A stretch of 64,000 bases of DNA from positions 2,080,657-2,144,656 of the forward strand of contig NC_049988.1 of the NCBI RefSeq assembly GCF_000003815.2. Direction: 5' to 3'. The position numbers and the translations under genes were made by a program. This document shows, in pieces, positions 13,811 to 64,000 of the stretch (the first letter of the stretch is position 1; each line of letters starts with the position of its first letter). The notes under the pieces are model-generated. The model was not told where the DNA came from, ran no database searches, and was given only the letters and a program-made list of their open reading frames with translations. This DNA is from Branchiostoma floridae (Eukaryota; Chordata; Leptocardii; Amphioxiformes; Branchiostomatidae).

Positions 13811-14705
13811 GTAAGGGTTTTTGAAGTTAGAAACTTTCAAAGTCGTAGCTAAATGGCGTGTAGGGCCTCAGCCTGTGTCTGTGACATACGTGCCATATGA
13901 ATTGCCGACTCAGTTTCTGTCATACATATGTTTTTCTCTTCCTCGATTTTTGTTCACCTCCAACAGATCGAAGCTGGTCAGGGGGGTCTATCAGATGACC
14001 TTGTGATAAACTCTCAGTAATTTATCTGTGTTTATTTTTCAGAATTTCTCGGGAGTGGTGGCCGCGGACTGCTCAGTAAGCAGATTCTTCAAATGTAAAG
14101 TGCCTGTGTCGTCACGCTATAGTTTTACCCGTCGGAGATTAACTAAAAAAACCCGTCTGAATAGGGCTAACCCTACCACTTATATTAGCTAGCTGTTATA
14201 GCAAGCTCTTCAGCTCACTTTGTATTTACCCTGCAGCTATATAGAAGTCGCGTTTCCATTAGACATTGTATAATCGAAACGTCCCTATCATAACTTTTTT
14301 CTATATAAAGTGGAAGCGTATACGAAGGCTTACACATGAAGTATACACAAAAACATTGGATTTTATGATATTTATTAGCCACTTGCAGCATTCAGCAATT
14401 GTTAATTTAACAATTGCATTCAAGCAGATGCAAATATTAATGTATATATCATATAACAAAGCCAATTATCTTTATGTCATCGCAATCGAAAATACACAAA
14501 CACACCAAATGCTTCTTTACTATATGAAACAGTACTACAAACTTAACATTCAAGTATTAATTATATTTCAGCCATACCACAGGTATGGTGAAATATATTG
14601 TATTCGTAATTATATTGCAATCCATACATAGTATGGGATTGCAATATATTGTAATATTGCAATCCATACATAGTATGGGATTGCAATATATTGCTTTTCC
14701 TTTGT

Positions 14706-15942
14706 TATATTGCAATCCATACTACAGTATGGGATTGCAATATATTGCTTTTCCTTTGTCTCTCCTGTCAAATTCTTCAAATGGATTCAACTTTTTCATT
14801 TTTGGATCAAATGAACTGAAATTTGGCAGGGTGGTAGAAATAGCAAATACCCCCAGACGTTTTTTTCACTTTCTTGATAGAGGCCTTAGAATTTATGATA
14901 TTTAGGGTTTTTGGTCATTTTTAGACAAAATATGTATATTTTGGGCCGCTGTGCCCTGGAATTACAAGCTAATGACCTGAAATTTGGTACAGAGGTGCAT
15001 TGGACATATGAGCACAGGAAACAATCAACACTTTCTTCATAGATCACTTAAAAAATTAGTTGCTTTAGGGGTTTTGGCCATTTTTGACTAAAAATGTATA
15101 TTTTTGGCTCCTATGCCCTTGTATTACAACCTAATGACCTGAAATTTGGCACAGGGGTGCATTGGACATATGAGCACAGGAAACCATTAACACTCTCTTC
15201 ATAGATTACTTTAAAAATTAGTTATTTGGGTTTTTTTGGCCAATTTTTACTAAAAATGTATATTTTTGGCTCCTATGCCCTTGTATAGAATTCAAATGAC
15301 CTGAAATTTGGTACATAAGTGCATTGGACGTATTGGCACAGGATCCCATCAACGCTTTCTTCACTGACCACTTCAAAAATGAGCTATTTTGGAGTTTTCT
15401 GCCATTTTTGACTAAAAATGTTTATTTTTGGCTCCTATGCCCTTGTATAGAAACCTAATGACCTGAAATTCGGCATGAAGGTGTGTCTGGCATGTGCCCA
15501 CAGTACTTCATTTTCACTTTGTGGATACATTACTTTAAATTGTTGAATTTGGGGATTTTTTGCCATTTTTAGACTAAAAATGTTAAGTTTGGGCTCCTGT
15601 GCCTATGTATGGAAACCAAATGGTCTGAAATTTGGTATAAAGGTGTGTACGGTATATGGCCACAGGGCTCTATTCACACCTATGGTGTACATCAATTGAA
15701 AATTGTGACATTTGGGATTTTTTGCCGTTATTGACCAAAAATGTACATTTTTGCTTCCTGTGTCATGAGAAATCCAACTGATCTGGAATTTGGTATTAGG
15801 GTAGCTTTAGCACTATAATTGGGAATTGGGCCACATAGACTGGTCCATTTTGCATAGATAGGGGTGTTCTGGAAGAGTCCATTATTGTATGATGGATTGC
15901 AATATGCTGTATTTGCTCCCAAGCAAATGTCGGCCTTTCTAG
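14706..15942 (+). mobile_element. Non-autonomous type B Helentron (1.24 kb)
   Basis: 5' palindromic end at 14,706-14,747, a TCTCCTGTCAAAT leader, ~160-bp monomers with the phrase GACCTGAAATTTGGTACA, then GATGGATTGCAATATGCTG, hairpin ATTTGCTCCCAAGCAAAT and GTCGGCCTTTCTAG. No gene. The next left end (15,944) follows one T after the CTAG. Confidence 0.7.
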
Positions 15943-17480
15943 TTATATTGCAATCCATACATAGTATGGGATTGCAATATATTGTTATATTGCAATCCAT
16001 ACATAGTATGGGATTGCAATATATTGTTTTTGCTGAGTTTCTTCTCCTGTCAAATCTTCAGACCCCTTTAACTTTTTCATTTTTAGGCCAAATGAGCCGA
16101 AATTGGGCATGGGGGTAGGGATATCAAATACCCTCAGGTGTTTTTTTCACTTTTTTGATAGAGGCCTTAGAATTTATGATATTTAGGGTTTTTGGTCATT
16201 TTTAGACAAAATATGTACATTTTGGGCCCCTGTGCCCTGGTATTACAAGCTAATGACCTGAAATTTGGTACAGAGGTGCATTGGACATATGAACACAGAA
16301 AACCGTCAACGCTTTATTTATGGATCACTTCAAAAATTAGTTATTTTAGGGTTTTTGGCCATTTATTACGAAAAATGTATATTTTTGGCTCCTATGCCCT
16401 TGTATTAAAACCAAATGACTTGAAATTTGGTACAGAGGTGCGTTTGACATATGACCACAGAACTCCATCAACGCTATATTCATTGTTTACTCCAAAAATG
16501 AGTTATTTTAGGGTTTTTGGCCATTTTTGACTAAAAATGCATATTTTTTGCTCCTATGCCCTTGTATAGAAACCAAATGACCTGAAATTTGGTACAGACG
16601 TGCATTGAACATATGCTCACAGGACCCCATTGACACTTTCTTCATAGAGTACTTCAAAAATTAGTTATTTTGGGGTTTTCAGTCATTTTTGACTAAAAAT
16701 GTATATTTTTGGCTTCTATGCCCTTGTATGTAAACCAACTGACCTGAAATTTGGTACAAAGGTAAATTGGACATATGACAACAGGACCCCATCAACACTT
16801 TCTTCATAGAGCACTTATGAAATGAGTTATTTTGGGGTTTTTAGCCATTTTTAACTAAAAAATGTATATTTATGGCTCCTATGCCCTTGTATGTAAACCA
16901 AATGACCTAAAATTCGGCATGAAGGTGTGTAGGACAAGTGCCCATAGTGCTTCATTTTCCCTTTGAGCAAACATTACTTCAAATTGTTTAATTTTGGGAT
17001 TTTTTTCAAGGATGAAGATGGATTGCAATATGCTGTATTTGCTCCTAAGCAAATGTCGGTCTTTCTAGTTTCTTCTTCTTCTTCTCCTGTCAAATCTTCA
17101 AATGGGATTAACTTTTTTATTTTTGGACCAAATGACCTGAAATTTGGTATGGGCATAGAGTTGGCAAATACCCCCAGACGTTTTTTTCATTTTTTTCACA
17201 AAGGCCTTAAAAATCATTTTATTGCGTTTTTTCGGCAACTTTTGGACAAATTTGCAAATTTGTGGGCCCTGTGCCCTGGTATTACAACGACAAGAACTGA
17301 AATTTGGCACAGGGGTACATTGGACATATGCCCACAGGGTATCATTCGTGTTGGTGATATACACCACTTGGAAATCATTCATTTTTGAGTGTTTTCGGCT
17401 ATATTCCGACCAAAAATGTGCCAAAAACCTCCGAGACACTCTCTTAGAATCCCATGCACGTTCGATGTTCGATATAGTCT
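14790..17480 (+). repeat. ~160-bp tandem monomers, plus-strand block 1
   Basis: Monomers of ~160 bp contain CTATGCCCTTGTAT, ACCAAATGACCTGAAATTTG, CATATG and AAAATGAGTTATTTT-like phrases. They are interrupted at 15,900-16,030 and 17,015-17,070 by element ends. Frames read across them are by-products. Confidence 0.85.
15986..17068 (+). mobile_element. Non-autonomous type B Helentron nested in the leader (1.08 kb)
   Basis: Left palindrome from 15,986, monomers, right hairpin ATTTGCTCCTAAGCAAAT and CTAG at 17,065-17,068. The sequence after it (TTTCTTCTTC) continues the leader of the element that begins at 15,944. Confidence 0.65.
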
Positions 17481-19773: not shown

Positions 19774-20202
19774 GCACCCCGTTCATACCAGGATTCGCAT
19801 ATCCGGATATATCCTCATTCGCGGTGAATCCAGATTCGTGAACCCTGGTATGAAAGGTCCGAATCTGGATCTTTATGGGATATAATCATATATCCAGATA
19901 CGCCGAATCCACATCTAGATTTATCCGGATTTGCTGCAAGGTTGCTTTTCCTTCTGTCAAGTGCACGACGCAGCTCGTTGCCTCACTAACCATGCTACAT
20001 CAAAGCAAATTCTACTTAAGAGTTTCATTTGACGTCACCAAGCAGCTTCAGATGGTGTAAATAGGATATATCCAAATCTGATTTTGGACACGAATAATCA
20101 TATCCAGATTCGTCTAACCCTGGTATTAACGCAAATGGACATATCCGGATTTACACCGTATATGGATATATCCGGATACGCGAATCCTAGTATGAACGGG
20201 GC
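19774..20202. mobile_element. MITE with ~38-bp TIRs and CTA target duplication
   Basis: The left end GCACCCCGTTCATACCAGGA and the right end (reverse) GCCCCGTTCATACTAGGATT pair over ~38 bp. CTA flanks both sides (19,771-19,773 and 20,203-20,205). The interior is repeats of ATATCCGGAT/GAATC. A 3-bp duplication and GGCCCCGTTC-like ends fit PIF/Harbinger-type MITEs (inference). It lies just upstream of the large Helentron gene. Confidence 0.8.
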
Positions 20203-20347
20203 CTAATTGACTGCATCACTAGCCCTGGGACAAAGGCCATCATGCATCCAGGAGGTATGGACTTTTATAGCCAGTGACAAATATGCAAAGTGCCTGTATG
20301 TACAATGTTTACTAAAGTCGTGAAAATTGATTGTACATTCTGGTATT

Positions 20348-20472
20348 NNNNNNNNNNNNNNNNNNNNNNNNNNNNNNNNNNNNNNNNNNNNNNNNNNNNN
20401 NNNNNNNNNNNNNNNNNNNNNNNNNNNNNNNNNNNNNNNNNNNNNNNNNNNNNNNNNNNNNNNNNNNNNNNN
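20348..20472. other. Assembly gap (125 N)
   Basis: A run of N. It hides the true 5' end of the following large gene. Confidence 1.
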
Positions 20473-28140: not shown

Positions 28141-28740
28141 TAACGAAGGAAGGGAAGAGAACTCCCCTGTGATTGGGTTTGAAGAAGGAAAAAGATGTCC
28201 CCCTGTGATAGGGGTTGAGGAAAGAAAACTTTCCCTTTTTGTTGGGTTAGATGAGGAAAAAGAGGAAAAAATGTAAATCAAATGCACGACAATTTCTATA
28301 AGCACATTTGACAATAAGCTTATCTATTTTTTTCTTTTCCTTTAGGAGACCATTCCTCTGGGCATTGGAAAAAGAGGAAGGAAACAGAACTCTTCCCTGT
28401 GATTAGGGTAGAGAAAAGGCAGTGAGCTCCCCCGTGATTGGGGGAGAGGAAGGAAACAGAACTCTTCCCTGTGATTAGGGTAGAGAAAAGGCAATGAGCT
28501 ACCCCGTGATTAGGGTAGAAAAAGTAAACTGCTCCCCGTGCTTGGGGTAGGGGAAGGAATTTGAAACAGAAGTCTTTCCCTAGAGAAAAGGCAAAGAGCT
28601 TCCCCTTGATTGAGGTAGAAAGGAACAAGAGGTACCCTTGATTCGGGTAGAGGAAAGAAAAATAGCTCTCCCCGTGATTGGGGTTGAGGAAGGAGAAAGG
28701 GCTCTCCCCTGTGAGTGGGGCTGAGGAAGAGAAATAATGA
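28141..28740. repeat. Minisatellite of ~35-bp hairpin-forming units
   Basis: About 14 degenerate units with the core CTCCCCTGTGATTGGGGTTG and an A/G-rich spacer (GAGGAAGGAAA). The CCCC...GGGG arms within each unit are complementary around GTGATT, so each unit can fold by itself. Units and spacers are unequal and no cas-like gene is near, so this is not a CRISPR array. Confidence 0.8.
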
Positions 28741-29051
28741 GAGAAAAATCTGTTAAATGGAATGCACAATTGTAGCAATAAGCCAATTATCTAATCTCTA
28801 TCTGTGGTCATTTTATTATAATTTTTCCTAATATTATATTATATTATATATGTTCTGTTTTGTAATGTTGTATGTGTGCACATTATCAGTAACTATGTAG
28901 CGTTTTTAAGACTTATGTTCACCATCACAAACATTGTTTTGATATGGGTTCTAGATGTATAGTTTTGAAGTTTGATTGATGTTTTGTCAAATTTTAATTA
29001 CTATTCTATTAACATATATTATGTTCTCCTTTGTTTTTAACTTTTATTTTT

Positions 29052-29205
29052 CCCTCACCGGGATGCCCAAACATTGGCTCCCGATCCTTCCGCCTTGTCG
29101 TGGTGTGAGGGCCCGAATGTACCAATTTCCTGGGGTAGGTGCATCACTCCTACTCTGTAACCTCGAATGAGGGGTTGGAAATTGGAAGTCGCTAAAGGGA
29201 GGATC
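29052..29205 (+). ncRNA. HDV-like (delta-type) self-cleaving ribozyme candidate
   Basis: The nested double-pseudoknot order is complete. P1 CCCTCAC (29,052-29,058) pairs with GTGAGGG (29,105-29,111), a perfect 7 bp. P2 GATCCTTCC (29,083-29,091) pairs with GGGAGGATC (29,197-29,205), 9 bp with one G-U. P3 GCC (29,092-29,094) pairs with GGT (29,102-29,104) around loop TTGTCGT. P4 CCAATTTCC (29,122-29,130) pairs with GGAAATTGG (29,177-29,185), a perfect 9 bp with inner stems. J4/2 is AAGTCGCTAAA, with C29,192 at the place of the active-site cytosine and CTAA directly before P2'. A possible P1.1 pairs CG (29,099-29,100) with CG (29,114-29,115). Self-cleavage would occur just 5' of 29,052. J1/2 is long (24 nt), as in retroelement-associated members. 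Such ribozymes have been described in lancelets (recalled, not checked). It lies inside the autonomous Helentron, 1.85 kb after its gene. Confidence 0.75.
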
Positions 29206-29209
29206 ACGA

Positions 29210-30040
29210 GTCTAGCCTATCAAGGCCCTGCTAGCCATAGGTTTGGACTTTTTATATCTTGAAAGCACTTTGCATATAGTTCATTGCACAGCTGTATTAT
29301 TGTCAGTGATCATTTTTTTTTCCTTTCCTTTTCAAGCGTCAAGCAGTCAAAAGATCATGCTGGAACACATAGCAGGTAAGCTTTTGACAAGATGGAAAAA
29401 TAATTGTTTTGCGTTGAAACTTGATTACAAATGTAAAATAGTTTTTAGTTAACACCAAAGTGTACTCGTGTGGTATGTTTTTGTCACTTTAGAGTGACTA
29501 ACTTTGTCAAAATCAGAATGTTTTTGCTTGACTTAAATACCAAATCTCCTGTTTCTGTCCTCCAGATGGGACCCAACTAGAGAAAGAAAAGCCGCACTAG
29601 GCCTAGGGAAGAACCAGTCAAACCTGATCTCAGCCAGCTGCAGAAGGACATGGCAGATAGCAGCCAGCTTTGCAAAGTTTTGAAGAAGTTGTTTAAGTTT
29701 CAAGTAAAGATTTAAAGTGTATATTATTTCATCTTGCATCATTTTTTCGATTCTCTTTGTATTTGCATTTTTGTATTTATAACAGGTAACAAAATTGCAA
29801 GACAAGTACAAGGTTTCAAAAATTGTTTAATTAAAGCTGTCAAGAAGATTCAATAGTGTACATGACTTATGCTTGCATCTTTCTTTTTTGTTACTTAGAT
29901 TGTGAGAGTGTGTGTAGAGTTAATCATTTTCAACTTTATCCTTGTAGGGCTAAGAACATCTAAACTACTCAGTCAATGTGACTCTGCATTGTCTCTACAA
30001 ACTTGTGAATCGTCGAATGCAAGTAATCACATTCCATTTT
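29210..30040. other. 3' part of the autonomous Helentron, no gene recognised
   Basis: AT-rich. It has good splice-like signals (CCTTTTCAAG|CGTC at 29,334, ACATAGCAG|GTAAGC at 29,374, CTCCAG|ATGGG at 29,565), so a spliced 3' UTR or a small exon of a longer transcript is possible. No retrotransposon frame follows the ribozyme. Confidence 0.4.
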
Positions 30041-30061
30041 GCTTGGATTGCAATATGCTGT

Positions 30062-30093
30062 ATTTGCTCGCGAGCAAATGTCGGCCTTTCTAG
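30062..30093 (+). other. Helentron 3' terminus: 18-nt palindrome plus CTAG
   Basis: ATTTGCTCGCGAGCAAAT (30,062-30,079), spacer GTCGGCCTTT, CTAG (30,090-30,093), followed by T. A hairpin ~10 nt before the end is the expected 3' terminator-type signal of Helitron-class elements. Confidence 0.8.
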
Positions 30094-30109
30094 TTTTTCC
30101 TTTGTCTCT

Positions 30110-31240
30110 TCTTCTCCTGTCAAATCTTCAAATCCCTTCTACTTTTTCATTTTTTGGCCAAATGAGCTGAAATTTGGCATGGAGGTAGAGATAGCAAATA
30201 ACCCCAGACGTTTTTTTCACTTTTTTGATAGAGGCCTTAGAATTTATGATATTTAGGGTTTTTGGTCATTTTTAGACAAAATATGTATATTTTGGGTCCC
30301 TGTGCCCTAGTATTACAAGCTAATGACATGAAATTTGGTACAGAGGTGCATTGGACATATGAGCATAGAAAACCATCAAAACTTTCTTCGTAGATTACTT
30401 CAAAAATGAGTTATTTTAGGTTTTTGGCCATTTTTGACTAAAAATGTCTATTTTTGGCTCCTATGCCCTTGTATTAAAACTAAATGACCTGAAAGTTGGG
30501 ACATAGGTGCATTTGACATATGACCACAGAACCCCATCAATGCTTTTTTCATTGTTTACTCCAAAAATGAGTTACTTTAGGGTTTTTGGCCATTTTTGAC
30601 TAAAAATGTATATTTTTTGCTCCTATGCCCTTGTATAGAAACCAAATGACCTGAAAGTTGGTACATAGGTGCGTTTCACATATGACCACAGAACCCCATC
30701 AACGCTTTTTTCATTGTTTACTCCAAAAATAAGTTATTTTAGGTTTTTTGGCCATTTTTTACTAAAAATGTATATTTATTGCTCCTATGCCCTTGTATAG
30801 AAACCAAATGACCTGAAATTTGGTACAGAGGTGCATTGAACATATGCTCACAGGACCCCATTGACACTTTCTTCATAGATCACTTCAGAAATTAGTTATT
30901 TGGGGGTTTTCAGTCATTTTTGACTAAAAATGTATATTTTTGGCTTCTATGCCCTTGTATGTAAACCAAATGACCTGAAATTTGGTACAAAGGTAAATTG
31001 GACATATGACAACAGGGCCCCAACAACACTTTCTTCATAGAGCACTTATGAAATGAGTTATTTTGCGATTTTTAGCCATTTTTAACTAAAAAATGTATAT
31101 TTTTGGCTCCTATGCCCTTATATTGAAACCAAATGACCTAAACTTCGGCATGAAGGTGTGTAGGACAAGTGCCCACAGTACTTCCTTTTCCCTTTGAGCA
31201 AACATTACTTCAAGTTGTTGAATTTTGGGATTTTTTCAAG
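30110..31240 (+). repeat. ~160-bp tandem monomers, plus-strand block 2
   Basis: The same monomer family as block 1 (GACCTGAAATTTGGTACA etc.) ends in the right-end hairpin and CTAG at 31,295-31,298. It continues the interior of a type B element interrupted by the copy ending at 30,093. Confidence 0.85.
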
Positions 31241-31996
31241 GATGAAGATGGATTGCAATATGCTGTATTTGCTCCTAAGCAAATGTCGGCCTTTCTAGTG
31301 TTTCTTCTTTCTTCTTCTTTCTTTCTTTCTTTCTTTCTCCTGTCAAATCTTCAGAACACGGTATCTCCGTTGTTCCTGAACCGAATGACTTGAAATTTGG
31401 CACAAGGGTAGAGTGGGCCAATACCCTCGGACGTTTTTTTCATTTTTTTCATATCTGTCTCTTAAATGATTTTATTAAGGTTTTTTGGTCATCTTAAGAC
31501 CAAAACTGTATATTTTGGCCCCCTGTACCCTGGTATTATAACCGAATGAGCTGAAATTTGGCACAGATGTGCCTTGATGATTCCCCCATATAAATTCAAT
31601 ATCACTTTTGGTGTACAATATAACGAAATGCTTATTTTTGCGATTTTTTGGTCATTTTTTTTACCAAAAAAGGACACTTTTGGCTCCTGTACCCTGGTTT
31701 TAGAACCGGATGACCTGAAATTTAGTTTAGAGGTGCCCTAGACATATGCGCACATGGATTCATTAACACTTGAGGCATACAGTACAACAAAATGCTTAAT
31801 TTTGCGATTATTTGGCCATTTTATGACCAAAAACGTACACTTTTGGCTCCTGTGCTCTGGTTGTAAAACTAAATGACCTAAATTTTGGTAAAAGGGTGCA
31901 CTAGATATTTATTCAAATGACACATGTATAATTTTTGGCATAAACCACTTCAAAATGATATATTTGGGGATTTTTTGTCATTTTCCAATAGCCAGA

Positions 31997-32026
31997 GGGG
32001 TCAATGACCTTAAGGTCGTTGACCCC
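31997..32026. repeat. 30-nt near-perfect palindrome
   Basis: GGGGTCAATGACCTT faces AAGGTCGTTGACCCC with one mismatch. It lies in the type A Helentron between its monomer block and the 120-bp repeats. Confidence 0.85.
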
Positions 32027-32139
32027 CCACCTGCAGATTACACCTACTGGCATGTATGTCTATTTAATCTAATTAGATAGGTAACCAATCACTTAGCCTG
32101 AATCTATATCCTAAAGAGGGGGGGTGGGAGCCAATCAGC

Positions 32140-32890
32140 GAGCCCGGTGTTATCTGGAAGAGTCCATTCTTACACGGAGGGGTTCATTTTTTTTAAATTC
32201 TTAATTGGACTGGTGAAGCCTTTCAGTGGGTGTATTTTTGGACAGGTCTATTTTGCAATTTTACAGAAGGTGTACTGGAAGAGTCTATTCTCGCACAGAG
32301 GGGGGATTTTTTTAAAATTCATTTTTGGACTTTGGTGACTACAAGTTTGTCAAAGTCTTTCAGTAGGGTTATTTTTGGACTGGTCAAATTTGCAATTTTA
32401 CATGGGTGTGCTGGAAGAGTCCATTCTTGCATGGAGGGGGGCTTTTTTAAAAATACATATTTTGGACTTTAGTGATTATGTCAAAGTCCTATTTTAGCGG
32501 ATGTATTTTTGGACAGCTCTACTTTACATGGAAGAGTCCATTTTTGCACACGGAAGGGGGATTTTTTCAAATTCAGTTTTGGACGGGTGATGATTCAAAA
32601 TTCAATTTTTAGTGGAAGTGTTTTTAGACTGGTCTATTATACCTTTTCATGCACTGGTACCTTTTTTTGCTAAATTTAATGTTGGATTTGGTTTCTTATT
32701 CAAAAGGCCAGGGTTTCAGTGGGAGTATTTCTGGACTGGTCTATTGTGCGAATTCACATAGGGTACACTGGAGTCCATTCTTGAACGGGGGAAGTTTGTA
32801 AGATTCATTTTTGGGTTAAACCATCATTAGTAAAAGTGATTTTTCAAATGGGTGATTTTGAAATAGTCTATTGTTGCATGGGGAGGGAGA
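32140..32890 (+). repeat. Degenerate ~120-130-bp tandem repeats of the type A element
   Basis: CTGGAAGAGTCCATTCTTGC-like phrases followed by GGAGGGGGG and ATTTTTTTAAA recur at about 32,150, 32,275, 32,408, 32,528, 32,765 and 32,862. The last unit runs into the right end of the outer element; a similar last unit (GGAACAGTCCAATGTTGCG) precedes the right end at 47.2 kb. Confidence 0.75.
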
Positions 32891-33168
32891 TGGCTGAAAT
32901 GTGCTGTATTTGCTCTCAAGCAAATGTCGGCCTTTCTAGTTCATAACGCTTTTCTGACAAAAGAAACAAAACGTTTAGATAATAATGACAAAGGTTTACT
33001 AATATATGATTAATCAAGTCAAAGTATACTGATGCATGATTAAGTAATCAAACGCATAACAAATATCATATTTCATATATGCATGAGATAAGGGTAATTA
33101 TCATATAGCCAGATGGAGTTGGCCAATCAGAGGCCCCCATTTCCCATGGGTTATCAGGCAGTAACCTC

Positions 33169-58940: not shown

Positions 58941-58946
58941 TAAACA

Positions 58947-61900
58947 CTAGAAAGGCCGACATTTGCTTAGGAGCAAATACAGCATATTGCAATCCATCTT
59001 CATCCTGGAAAAAATCCCAAAATTCAACAATTTGAAGTAATGTTTGCTCAAAGGGAAAATGAAGTACTGTGGGCACTTGTCCTACACACCTTCATGCCGA
59101 ATTTTAGGTCATTTGGTTTCAATATAAGGGCATAGGAGCCAAAAATATACATATTTTAGTTAAAAATGGCTAAAAATCCCAAAATAACTCATTTTATAAG
59201 TGCTCTATGAAGAAAGTGTTGATGGGGTCCTGTTGTCATATGTCCAATTTACCTTTGTACCAAATTTCAGGTCATTTGGTTTACATACAAGGGCATAGAA
59301 GCCAAAAATATACATTTTTAGTCAAAAATGGCCAAAACGCTTAAATAACTCATTTTTTAAGTGATCTGTGAAGAAAGTGTCAATGGGGTACTGTGAGCAT
59401 ATGTTCAATGCACCTCTGTACCAAATTTCAGGTCATTTGGTTTCTATACAAGGGCATAGGAGCAAAAAATATGCATTTTTAGTCAAAAATGGCCAAAAAA
59501 CCTAAAATAACTCATTTTTGAAGTGATCTATGAAGAAAGTGTTGATGGTTTTCTGTGCTGATATGTCCAATGCACCTCTGTACCAAATTTCATGTCATTA
59601 GCTTGTAATACCAGGGCACAGGGGCCCAAAATATACATATTTTGTCTAAAAATGACCAAAAACCCTAAATATCATAAATTCTAAGGCCTCTATCAAGAAA
59701 GTGAAAAAAACGTCTGGGGGTATTTGCTATTTCTACCACCCTGCCAAATTTCAGCTCATTTGGCCAAAAAATGAAAAAAATTAATCCCATTTGAAGATTT
59801 TGAGAGGAGAAACTCAGAAAAAACTTGAAAGGCCGACATTTGCTTTGGAGCAAATACAGCATATTGCAATCCATCTTCATCCTGGAAAAAATCCCCAAAT
59901 TCAACAATTTGAAGTAATGTTTGCTCAATGAGAAAATGAAGTTCAGTGGGCACTTGTCCTACACACCTTCATGCCGAGTTTTAGGTCATTTGGTTTCAAT
60001 ATAAGGGCATAGGAGCCAAAAATATACATTTTTTAGTTAAAAATGGCTAAAAATCCCAAAATAACTCATTTTATAAGTGCTCTATGAAGAAATTGTTGAT
60101 GGGGTCCTGTTGCCATATGTCCAATTTACGTTTCTACCAAATTTCAGGTGATTTGGTTTACATACAAGGGTATAGGAGCCAAAAATATACATTTTTTTGT
60201 CAAAAATGGCCAAAAACCCTAAAATAACTCATTTTTGGAGTAAACAATGAATTAAGCGTTGATGGGGTTCTGTGGTCATATGTCAAACGCACCTATGTAC
60301 CAAGTTTCAGGTCATTTGGTTTTAATACAAGGGCATAGGAGCCATAAATATACATTTTTAGTCAAAAATGGTCAAAAACCCTAAAATAACTAATTTCTGA
60401 AGTGATCTATGAAGAAGGTGTTAATGGTTTTCTGTGCTCATATGTCCAATGCACCTCTGTACCAAATTTCAGGTCGTTAGCTTGTAATACCAGGGCACAG
60501 GGGCCCAAAATATACATATTTTGTCTAAAAATGACCAAAAACCCTAAATATCATAAATTCTAAGGCCTCTATCAAGAAAGTGAAAAAAACGTCTGGGGGT
60601 ATTTGCCACCTCTATGCCCATGCCAAATTTCAGGTCATTTGGTCGAACAATAAAAAAGTTATTCCCATTTGAAGATTTGACAGGAGGAGAGACAAAGAAA
60701 AAACTAGAAAGGCCGACATTTGCTTAGGAGCAAATACAGCATATTGCAATCCATCTTCATCCTTGAAAAAATCCAAAAATTTAACAATTTGAAGTAATGT
60801 TTGCTCAATGGGAAAATAAAGTACTGTGGGCACTTGTCCTACACACATTCATGCCGAATTTTAGGTCATTTGGTTTCAATATAAGGGCATAGTAGCCAAA
60901 AATATACATTTTTTAGATAAAAATGGCTAAAAATCCCAAAATAAATCATTTTATAAGTGCTCTATGAAAAAAATGTCAATGGGATCCTGTTGTCATATGT
61001 CCAATTTACCTCTGTACAAAATTTCAGGTCATTTGATTTACATACAAGGGCATAGAAGCCAAAAATATACATTTTTAGTCAAAAATGACTGAAATCCCCA
61101 AAATAACTCATTTTTGAAGTGATCTATGAAAAAAGTGTCAATGGGGTCTTGTGAGCATATGTTCAATGCACCCCTGTACTAAATTTCAGGTCATTAGGTT
61201 TTCATACAAGGGCATAGGAGCCAAAAATATACATTTTTAGTCAAAAATGGCCAAAAACCCTAAAATAACTCATTTTTTGAGTAAACATTGAATAAAGCGT
61301 TGATAGGGTTCTGTGGTCATATGTCAAACGCACCTATGTACCAAGTTTCAGGTCATTTGGTTTTAATACAAGGGCATAGGAGCCATAAATATACATTTTT
61401 AGTCAAAAATGGCAAAAAACCCTAAAATAACTAATTTTTGAAGTGATCTATGAAGAAGGTGTTAATGGTCTTCTGTGCTCATATGTCCAATGCACCTCTG
61501 TACCAAATTTCAGGTCATTAGCTTGTAATACCAGGGCACAGGGGCCCAAAATATACATATTTTGTCTAAAAATGACCAAAAACCCTAAATATCATAAATT
61601 CTAAGGCCTGTATCAAGAAAGTGAAAAAAACGTCTGGGGGTATTTGCCATTTCTACCACCCTGCCAAATTTCAGCTCATTTGGCCAAAAAATGAAAAAGT
61701 AGAATTCAATTGAAGATTTGACAGGAGAAGAAGAAGAGACAAAGGAAAAACAATATATTGCATCCCATACTATGTATGGGGATTGCAATATAACTAGAAA
61801 GGCCGACATTTGCTTAGGAGCAAATACAGCATATTGCAATCCATCTTCATCCTTGAAAAAATCCCCAAATTCAACAATTTGAAGTAATGTTTGCTCAATG

Positions 61901-64000
61901 AGAAAATGAAGTTCTGTGGGCACTTGTCCTACACACCTTCATCCCGAATTTTAGGTCATTTGGTTTCAATATAATGGCATAGGAGCCAAAAATATACATT
62001 TTTTAGTTGAAAATTGCTAAAAATCCCCAAATAACTCATTTTATAAGTGTTCTATGAAGAAAGTGTTGATGGGGTCCTGTTGTCATATGTCCACTTTACC
62101 TTTCTACCAAATTTCAGGTCATTTGGTTTACATACAAGGGCATAGTAGCCAAAAATATACATTTTTAGTCAAAAATGGCTGAAAACCCCAAAATAACTAA
62201 TTTTTGAAGTCATCTATGAAGAAAGTGTCAATGGGGTCATGTGAGCATATGTTCAATGCACCTCTGTACCAAATTTCAGGTCATTAGGTTTTCATACAAG
62301 GGTATAGGAGCCAAAAATATACATTTTTAGTAAAAAAAATGGCCAAAAACCCTAAAATAACTCATTTTTGGAGTAAACAATGAATAAAGCGTTGATGGGG
62401 TTCTGTGGTCATATGTCAAACGCACCTATGTACCAAATTTCATGTCATTTGGTTTTAATACAAGGGCATAGGAGCCAAAAATATACATTTTTAGTCAGAA
62501 ATGGCCAAAAACCCTAAAATAACTCATTTTTTAAGCAATCTATGAAGAAAGTGTTGACTGTTTTCTGTGCTCACATGTTTAATGCACCTCTGTACCAAAT
62601 TTCAGGTCATTAGCTTGTAATACCAGGGCACAGGGGCCCAAAATATACATATTTTGTCTAAAAATGACCAAAAACCCTAAATATCATAAATTCTAAGGCC
62701 TCTATCAAGAAAGTGAAAAAAACGCCTGGGGGTATTTGCTACTTCTACCACCCTGCCAAATTTCAGCTCATTTGGCCCAAAAATGAAAAAGTTGAATCCA
62801 ATTGAAAGATTTGACAGGAGGAGAACAAAGAAAAAACTCGAAAGGCCAATCCCATACTATGTATGGATTGCAGCATATTGCAATCCATCTTCATCCTTGA
62901 AAAAATCCAAAAATTTAACAATTTGAAGTAATGTTTGCTCAATGAGAAAATAAAGTACTGTGGGCACTTGTCCTACACACATTCATGCCGAATTTTAGGT
63001 CATTTGGTTTCAATATAAGGGCATAGTAGCCAAAAATATACATTTTTTAGATAAAAATGGCTAAAAATCCCAAAATAAATCATTTTATAAGTGCTCTATG
63101 AAAAAAATGTCAATGGGATCCTGTTGTCATATGTCCAATTTACCTCTGTACAAAATTTCAGGTCATTTGATTTACATACAAGGGCATAGAAGCCAAAAAT
63201 ATACATTTTTAGTCAAAAATGACTGAAATCCCCAAAATAACTCATTTTTGAAGTGATCTATGAAAAAAGTGTCAATGGGGTCTTGTGAGCATATGTTCAA
63301 TGCACCCCTGTACTAAATTTCAGGTCATTAGGTTTTCATACAAGGGCATAGGAGCCAAAAATATACATTTTTAGTCAAAAATGGCCAAAAACCCTAAAAT
63401 AACTCATTTTTTGAGTAAACATTGAATAAAGCGTTGATAGGGTTCTGTGGTCATATGTCAAACGCACCTATGTACCAAGTTTCAGGTCATTTGGTTTTAA
63501 TACAAGGGCATAGGAGCCATAAATATACATTTTTAGTCAAAAATGGCAAAAAACCCTAAAATAACTAATTTTTGAAGTGATCTATGAAGAAGGTGTTAAT
63601 GGTCTTCTGTGCTCATATGTCCAATGCACCTCTGTACCAAATTTCAGGTCATTAGCTTGTAATACCAGGGCACAGGGGCCCAAAATATACATATTTTGTC
63701 TAAAAATGACCAAAAACCCTAAATATCATAAATTCTAAGGCCTGTATCAAGAAAGTGAAAAAAACGTCTGGGGGTATTTGCCATTTCTACCACCCTGCCC
63801 AATTTCAGCTCATTTGGCCCAAAAATGAAAAAGTAGAATTCAATTGAAGATTTGACCGGAGAAGAAGAAGAGACCAAGGAAAAACCATATATTGGATCCC
63901 ATACTATGTATGGGGATTGCAATATAACTAGGAAGGCCGAACCTTTGCTTAGGACCAAAACAGCATATTGCAATCCATCTTCATCCTTGAAAAAATCCCC
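58947..64000 (-). mobile_element. Head-to-tail array of non-autonomous type B Helentrons (off right edge)
   Basis: Minus-strand right ends (CTAG or worn CTAG) lie at about 58,947, 59,824, 60,704, 61,794, 62,837 and 63,928. Each is preceded by the hairpin and GATGGATTGCAATATG. Between them are ~160-bp monomers (AAATTTCAGGTCATTTGGTT spaced 161-162 bp apart at 59.26, 59.42 and 59.58 kb). At 61,794 and 63,928 the next element's palindromic left end follows directly. The unit 60.70-62.84 kb is repeated at 62.84-64.0 kb with few changes, a ~2,134-bp higher-order period. Confidence 0.85.

Follow-up and report, generated by a model that had tools for sequence, protein, structure and literature searches.

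A predicted HDV-like ribozyme in a Helentron of Branchiostoma floridae, probably derived from the 5′ end of a LINE

HDV-like ribozymes occur in many genomes, and for some of those found outside LINEs it is not always clear how they came to be there. The locus studied here raises this question directly: how did such a fold come to lie inside a rolling-circle DNA transposon, and is it of any use there? We analyzed a stretch of 64,000 nucleotides of Branchiostoma floridae (contig NC_049988.1, positions 2,080,657 to 2,144,656), called the window below. The original prediction had placed an HDV-like ribozyme in the 3′ region of a Helentron in this window, either as a processor of the replicase transcript or as a 5′ end left behind by a LINE that has since been lost. 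HDV-like ribozymes are known at the 5′ ends of the non-LTR retrotransposons R2, R4/Dong, Baggins, and L1Tc (PMC3774820), and B. floridae is among the species with HDV-like ribozymes (PMC8256844).

An inspection of the site by hand and by script gave the complete helix order P1-P2-P3-L3-P3′-P1′-P4-J4/2-P2′, a nested double pseudoknot at the coordinates first proposed (Table 1). Five helices had been announced. P1, P2, P3, P4, and J4/2 are all present, whereas P1.1 comprises a single pair (G29097-C29112), and the stable J1/2 hairpin had been absent from the earlier description. L3 holds the conserved C and G together with the U-G pair, and J4/2 holds a cytosine at the putative catalytic place, C29192. 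Position +1 of the window ribozyme is a C-G pair; in HDV the +1 pair is a G-U wobble. Conserved L3 residues have been described for HDV-like ribozymes (PMC3774820), in which P1.1 consists of “one or two base-pairs” (PMC4908430). A structured J1/2 strongly speeds cleavage in the mosquito ribozyme drz-Agam-2-1 (PMC4908430), which resembles the window ribozyme in its extended P2 and base-paired, P1.2-like J1/2 hairpin. The two differ in sequence and host. When the P2 strands are kept unpaired, the nested part that is left has a folding energy of −54.6 kcal/mol; the P2 duplex by itself contributes −13.3 kcal/mol, and the best pseudoknot-free fold has −59.5 kcal/mol. Because the first two values together fall below the third before any pseudoknot penalty, the active fold is predicted to be energetically competitive with, though not necessarily dominant over, the pseudoknot-free alternative.

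Table 1 Features of the predicted ribozyme and of the Helentron that carries it (positions in the window)
Feature	Position	Strand	Basis and remarks
HDV-like ribozyme (predicted)	29052..29205	+	Fold by hand and script; descriptor; covariation of relatives
P1, 7 Watson-Crick pairs	29052-29058/29105-29111	+	Fold
J1/2 hairpin (P1.2-like)	29059..29083	+	−11.7 kcal/mol; 5/500 mononucleotide shuffles equally stable
P2, 9 pairs including one G-U	29083-29091/29197-29205	+	Fold
P3 hairpin	29092..29104	+	Fold; 29092-29094/29102-29104, 3 pairs including one G-U
L3, TTGTCGT, HDV-type	29095-29101	+	Fold
P1.1, single pair	G29097-C29112	+	Fold; second position is a T29096 x C29113 mismatch
P4 arm with two terminal hairpins	29114..29191	+	−28.5 kcal/mol; 1/500 mononucleotide shuffles equally stable
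P4 pairing	29114-29116/29189-29191 plus 29122-29130/29177-29185	+	Fold
J4/2, CTAAA, putative catalytic cytosine C29192	29192..29196	+	Fold; CTAAA or CCAAA in aligned relatives
Predicted cleavage site, T29051/C29052, equal to the 5′ end of LINE copies	29051..29052	+	Fold; starts of isolated copies
Stable hairpin 3′ of the ribozyme, remainder of the LINE-derived segment	29206..29250	+	Fold; also in LINE-type L009 and L014
Helentron replicase reading frame, 2,291 aa	20324..27199	+	OTU, DUF6570, Rep, PIF1-type helicase, C-terminal EEP endonuclease (Pfam scan)
221-bp x 3.9 tandem repeat, directly 3′ of the replicase stop codon	27276..28131	+	Tandem Repeats Finder
Degenerate repeats of about 36 bp	28149..28734	+	Tandem Repeats Finder; tblastn against B. 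belcheri models
Helentron 3′ terminus	30045..30093	+	Subterminal inverted repeat GGATTGCAATAT, palindrome 30063-30078, final TTTCTAG
Exon-like block 3′ of the ribozyme	29343..29375	+	Polypyrimidine tract; strong donor CAG/GTAAGC (scored); acceptor CAAG by eye
Second exon-like block	29566..29700 (end arbitrary)	+	Acceptor CTCCAG/ATGGGA; consensus prediction

We first asked how readily such a fold arises by chance. A descriptor devised after the site was known, with a 7-bp P1, a P2 of at least 6 bp, P3, an HDV-type L3, a CNAR J4/2, and P4, matched the window at this site only, with P1 at 29052 (score 48) or 29041 (score 40). Among 4,000 dinucleotide-preserving shuffles, 72 gave any match and one reached the score of 48. 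When 100 shuffle matches were folded, J1/2 attained −8 kcal/mol or lower in four and the P4 arm −25 kcal/mol or lower in two, and none had both extra arms; at the real site the two values are −9.6 and −28.8 kcal/mol. A chance fold is favored by the pairing of P1, P2, and P3, which is unexceptional by itself: once the L3 requirement is dropped, the best of 200 shuffles scores 49 against 48 for the real site. It is opposed by the rarity of the score with the L3 core, by the fact that no shuffle match had both arms, and by covariation, on which the fold appears to rest more strongly than on the shuffle statistics. With 18 distinct relatives covarying, we rule out a chance fold, whose probability we regard as negligible. 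The suggested search with the Rfam HDV models came back empty, as Rfam 15 gave no HDV match in the window at the gathering threshold, none locally at E ≤ 10, and none in seven loci. The Rfam HDV models are narrow and lack the pseudoknot.

The relatives were obtained by a search of the 513-Mb B. floridae assembly with positions 29040-29260 as the query, in which 40 of 56 candidates were scored and 30 were fetched as loci. Twenty copies, 18 of them distinct, formed the covariation set, with the reference structure read from the window copy; L002, L003, L004, L011, L012, L015, L018, L025, L026, and L030 were left out as near-duplicates. L015 and L018 have altered 5′ ends in which the 5′ strand of P1 is not intact, and L009, which is in the count, is likewise altered. 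Over the 18 distinct copies, 96.0% of 897 cells are paired, and slid controls reach at most 52.3%. Changes on both sides were found in 8 of 50 pairs, namely two of the seven in P1, five of the nine in P2, and one in P4. As most of these double changes fall in P1 and P2, the two main helices of the pseudoknot, they support the pseudoknot itself. The seven counted pairs of the J1/2 hairpin are invariant in the 18 sequences and the P1.1 pair is kept in 17, an invariant pair being no evidence by itself. One P4 pair is open in 8 of the 18 sequences and one terminal-hairpin pair in 14. Of five measures, four withstood shuffle control (a); the exception was the number of further pair types, for which 410 of 500 shuffles were as high. 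In the P4 region of the alignment, six bases found in the 15 LINE-type rows are missing from the five Helentron rows.

What are these relatives? Eight of the 30 loci, the window included, are collinear with the Helentron on both sides, and in the remaining 22 similarity is confined almost entirely to the ribozyme, at 81–86% identity. The first base of these isolated copies lies within 3 nt of 29052 in 20 of 22 cases (the exceptions are L009 and L018), no two of their 60-nt upstream flanks match each other at E ≤ 1e-4, and on inspection by eye the sequences downstream group into at least seven sets. Such start points and unrelated upstream flanks are what retrotransposon 5′ ends freed by their own ribozyme would be expected to look like. 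Twelve downstream regions were fetched, and eight frames from eight of them, picked for length, were scanned with Pfam; the four other regions either had no long frame where one was expected (L036 and L039) or were N-rich (L032 and L041). All eight frames contain LINE enzyme domains, RVT_1 in four and EEP-type in seven, of which the EEP of L033 falls below the Pfam cut-off. Single frames of 921–1,055 aa are found in L033, L035, and L038, and the best 120 of 684 matches to the L035 protein include close relatives from B. belcheri, snails, fish, and Schistosoma. From the single EEP-RT frame of about 1,050 aa we refer to these LINEs as RTE-like. Beside the ribozymes of L041 and L032, long frames may be open only through N (2,363 and 1,335 N, respectively). 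The starts at the cleavage site, the unrelated upstream flanks, and the LINE domains downstream all indicate that the motif is the 5′ ribozyme of RTE-like LINEs, and the isolated copies are of the same kind as the 5′ ribozymes of R2, R4, Baggins, and L1Tc. They lend strong support to the earlier suggestion of a stranded 5′ end of a lost LINE.

The window copy has a different host. Its replicase frame fuses a Rep-helicase to an endonuclease (Pfam), as in Helentrons, and OTU, DUF6570, Rep, PIF1-type helicase, and EEP make up the Helentron domain set (PMC4067079). Among the best 120 of 1,795 matches is a protein from a record labeled Branchiostoma floridae x B. japonicum, which is 99% identical over residues 860-1800. 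The ribozyme lies between the replicase stop (27199) and the 3′ terminus (30093), inside the element as first proposed. Several satellite-bearing non-autonomous copies within the window end in a terminus of about 53 bp like that at 30045-30093, so that on the 3′ side the autonomous copy has subterminal inverted repeats and a 3′ palindrome in common with its non-autonomous partners. At their 5′ side the partners carry ATATTGCAATCC; on the 5′ side of the autonomous copy, ATTGCAATCC is absent from 15990 up to the replicase ORF. Satellite-bearing HINEs with comparable termini have been described for oyster (PMC7492417). No Helentron relatives were found in viral contigs.

Several other features of this neighborhood were observed. 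Non-autonomous Helentron-like units that carry a 162-bp satellite form arrays at 14612-17330, 30094-32940, and 58942-64000; the units are bounded by ATATTGCAATCC and GGATTGCAATAT...TTTCTAG, some stand head to tail, and one array directly adjoins the 3′ end of the autonomous Helentron. A long inverted repeat (CACCCCGTTCATACCAGGATTCG ... GAATCCTAGTATGAACGGGG) at 19780-20203, just 5′ of the replicase frame, is MITE-like by eye. Splice-donor-like GGTAAGG words recur in the 221-bp repeat. At the N-terminus of P0013, a B. lanceolatum Helentron protein, the 2A-like peptide motif GDVEENPGP precedes the OTU region, and at the corresponding end the window frame contains 125 N (20348-20472). N-terminal 2A peptides are known from some LINEs.

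How much of a LINE is present in the Helentron? The LINE-type copies L009 and L014 share with it both the ribozyme and the following hairpin, to about 29241-29251, and because this hairpin is common to them, some 200 bp of a LINE 5′ end would be present in the Helentron. We therefore consider it very probable that the segment from 29052 to about 29250 was once the 5′ end of an RTE-like LINE, that an ancestral Helentron received it in its 3′ non-coding part by insertion or capture, without the LINE body, and that it has been copied along since. Helentrons and HINEs are reported to capture gene fragments (PMC4067079, PMC7492417). Given the diversity of the LINE families and a left edge of the segment that coincides with a LINE 5′ end, transfer from LINE to Helentron appears simpler than the reverse. 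Six short frames, five in 29044-30090 and one at 28320-28787, contain no transposon domain at E ≤ 1, in agreement with the earlier statement that no reverse transcriptase lies downstream; with no LINE enzyme in the adjoining frames, this copy is a fragment and not a LINE. Counted against a captured LINE ribozyme are the single-pair P1.1, the C-G at +1, a degraded Helentron copy (L008, below), and the lack of a target-site duplication at 29052, where exact matches reach at most the 6-bp ATTTTT and inexact ones are only T-rich.

LINE insertions are usually cut short at the 5′ end, and for this reason a 5′ end without a body would have to come from a short derivative or from a LINE deleted internally or at its 3′ side. 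Such a derivative is the basis of an alternative in which a short non-autonomous LINE product, a SIDE-like unit of ribozyme and 3′ hairpin, was inserted as a complete unit of about 200 bp. The LINE-like segment does stop just after the stable hairpin, at about 29250, and ribozyme-bearing SIDEs are known for the R2 element of Drosophila (PMC3414825). However, no target-site duplication surrounds 29052, and the likeness to L009 and L014 has no common end, L009 running on into a LINE endonuclease frame (L037). We regard a complete SIDE-like unit as improbable and retain the captured LINE 5′ end as the preferred reading.

Whether the ribozyme is a regular part of this Helentron was examined by a flank search with the ribozyme-free query 29255-29560, which may not reach other Helentron lineages. 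It gave 10 loci, all of which were scored, and in this preset comparison the fold was not absent from other copies: no ribozyme-free copy occurs among the 10 loci, and the ribozyme sequence is of full length in eight (L001-L008, L001 being the window copy). L052 has both ribozyme ends around an N run, and L059 retains only the 3′ end, 29177-29207, joined to unrelated DNA, with a flank that is 78–80% identical. Around the ribozyme, six of the eight copies are near-identical and say little about selection. Replicase state was examined in 10,000 bases for each of the seven other copies. Stop-free replicase stretches measure 1,892 aa in L043, 2,175 aa in L045, and 1,329 aa in L047; one stop interrupts L044 and another the N-terminal piece of L047, the L048 replicase is fragmented and adjoins 5,339 N, and the stretches examined of L046 and L049 contain no replicase match. 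In L004 (G000:C3:9549530), taken with L045, the ribozyme is identical to that of the window and the 3′ region shares 97% identity with it as far as 30002, whereas the replicase is only 90% identical and the 3′ terminus differs; this copy is a possible recombinant.

These copies bear on whether the ribozyme is merely a passenger, that is, a LINE 5′ fragment copied along with a recently amplified Helentron. The six near-identical copies, the broken L008, and the truncated L059 are in keeping with a passenger, an account that is compatible with the LINE origin and to which we give an even chance. The more diverged L007 argues against it. Relative to the window copy, L007 has changed at 3 of 154 ribozyme positions (1.9%) and at 107 of 930 flank positions (11.5%), with 0 of 52 in the core (one-sided Fisher p = 2.9e-5); the flank block 29376-29565, with 51 of 181 changed, may be replaced DNA, and the flanks without it give 56 of 749. 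The ribozyme stretch of L059 is also 93.5% identical, against 78% for its flank. In L008, one of the eight full-length copies, the contrast is marginal (8 of 154 against 90 of 945, p = 0.049); two P1 pairs and the P1.1 pair are disrupted by the changes in this copy. The ribozyme looks intact in most Helentron copies, and the pattern of substitution suggests that the fold may have been kept for some time.

For the LINEs, a likely action of the ribozyme can be proposed. The RNA would fold inside a read-through transcript, the J4/2 cytosine (C29192 here) would promote cleavage just before the first base of P1, and the cut would release RNA with a precisely defined 5′ end that the next insertion can use. 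In the Helentron, catalytic activity is plausible on the modeled fold. As the ribozyme is in sense with the replicase gene and downstream of its stop codon, a replicase transcript that reaches the fold should be cut, at about 1.85 kb past the stop. By the chemistry of the HDV class, which leaves a 2′,3′-cyclic phosphate upstream and a 5′-OH downstream, the cut transcript would carry these two ends.

Could such a cut serve the Helentron? No AATAAA occurs from the replicase stop to the ribozyme, and an ATTAAA is found at 29830. On inspection by eye, the exon-like block at 29343-29375 is similar to a peptide of B. belcheri models, and the second block matches two B. belcheri models weakly (E 0.84 and 4.8). 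Translated repeats similar to those at 28149-28734 stand at the end of four of the seven B. belcheri Helentron models examined (best tblastn E 5e-6, or 1.8e-4 under other settings). The matches of the exon-like blocks and the repeat match under these other settings were obtained with low-complexity masking off and concern repetitive sequences. If the predicted exons are real, the ribozyme would be intronic, as in CPEB3.

On this basis an exapted ribozyme can be considered, one that is kept because its cutting of the 3′ non-coding part, or of a 3′ intron, would trim or limit replicase transcripts. This is a tentative account, compatible with the LINE origin, and it draws on the presence of ribozyme sequence in all 10 flank-identified copies, on the unchanged core and low divergence of L007, and on the lack of an AATAAA before the ribozyme together with the exon-like blocks beyond it, to which the B. 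belcheri models lend weak support. The degraded L008 with its marginal contrast tells against it, as do splice sites that are consensus predictions. That the Helentron gains any use from the ribozyme may be true, though we would not presume it. The LINE ribozyme may conceivably have been taken over as a working Helentron part that sets the 3′ fate of the replicase transcript, with the fold selected while its neighbors drift, and we hold this view with reserve.

Compared with known systems, the window ribozyme shares with the R2, R4/Dong, Baggins, and L1Tc ribozymes the nested double pseudoknot, the conserved L3, the J4/2 cytosine (here putatively catalytic), and a cleavage site (here predicted) at or near the 5′ end of the element (PMC3774820). 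Unlike those, the window copy has no LINE body and lies inside a rolling-circle DNA transposon. The R2 SIDEs of Drosophila likewise have a ribozyme on a short non-autonomous derivative, whereas they are described as using retrotransposon machinery (PMC3414825) and the window module moves with a Helentron. The intronic CPEB3 ribozyme is also an HDV-like fold inside a gene (PMC8256844, PMC10919898); here the host is a transposon gene and the intron is predicted only. In Penelope-like elements, too, a self-cleaving ribozyme regularly belongs to the mobile element (PMC6431247), although it is of another class (hammerhead) and the element is a retroelement. The host resembles known Helentrons and HINEs in its EEP-bearing replicase, subterminal inverted repeats, 3′ palindrome, and satellite-bearing partners, and the accounts of these elements, as far as the consulted portions of PMC4067079 and PMC7492417 extend, mention no ribozyme. 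An HDV-like or self-cleaving ribozyme linked to a Helitron, a Helentron, or a DNA transposon does not appear in the consulted portions of PMC3414825, PMC6431247, PMC1594570, PMC4918198, and PMC8969392, a set that lies apart from the first surveys of HDV-like ribozymes.

LINE 5′ ribozymes were already known, and the new part appears to be the carriage of one by a rolling-circle DNA transposon. In B. floridae the donor (LINE 5′ ends), the carrier (the Helentron), and dozens of related copies are all found in one genome, and for this reason transfer, retention, and function are directly testable there. The finding suggests a route by which catalytic RNA modules may spread by DNA transposition.
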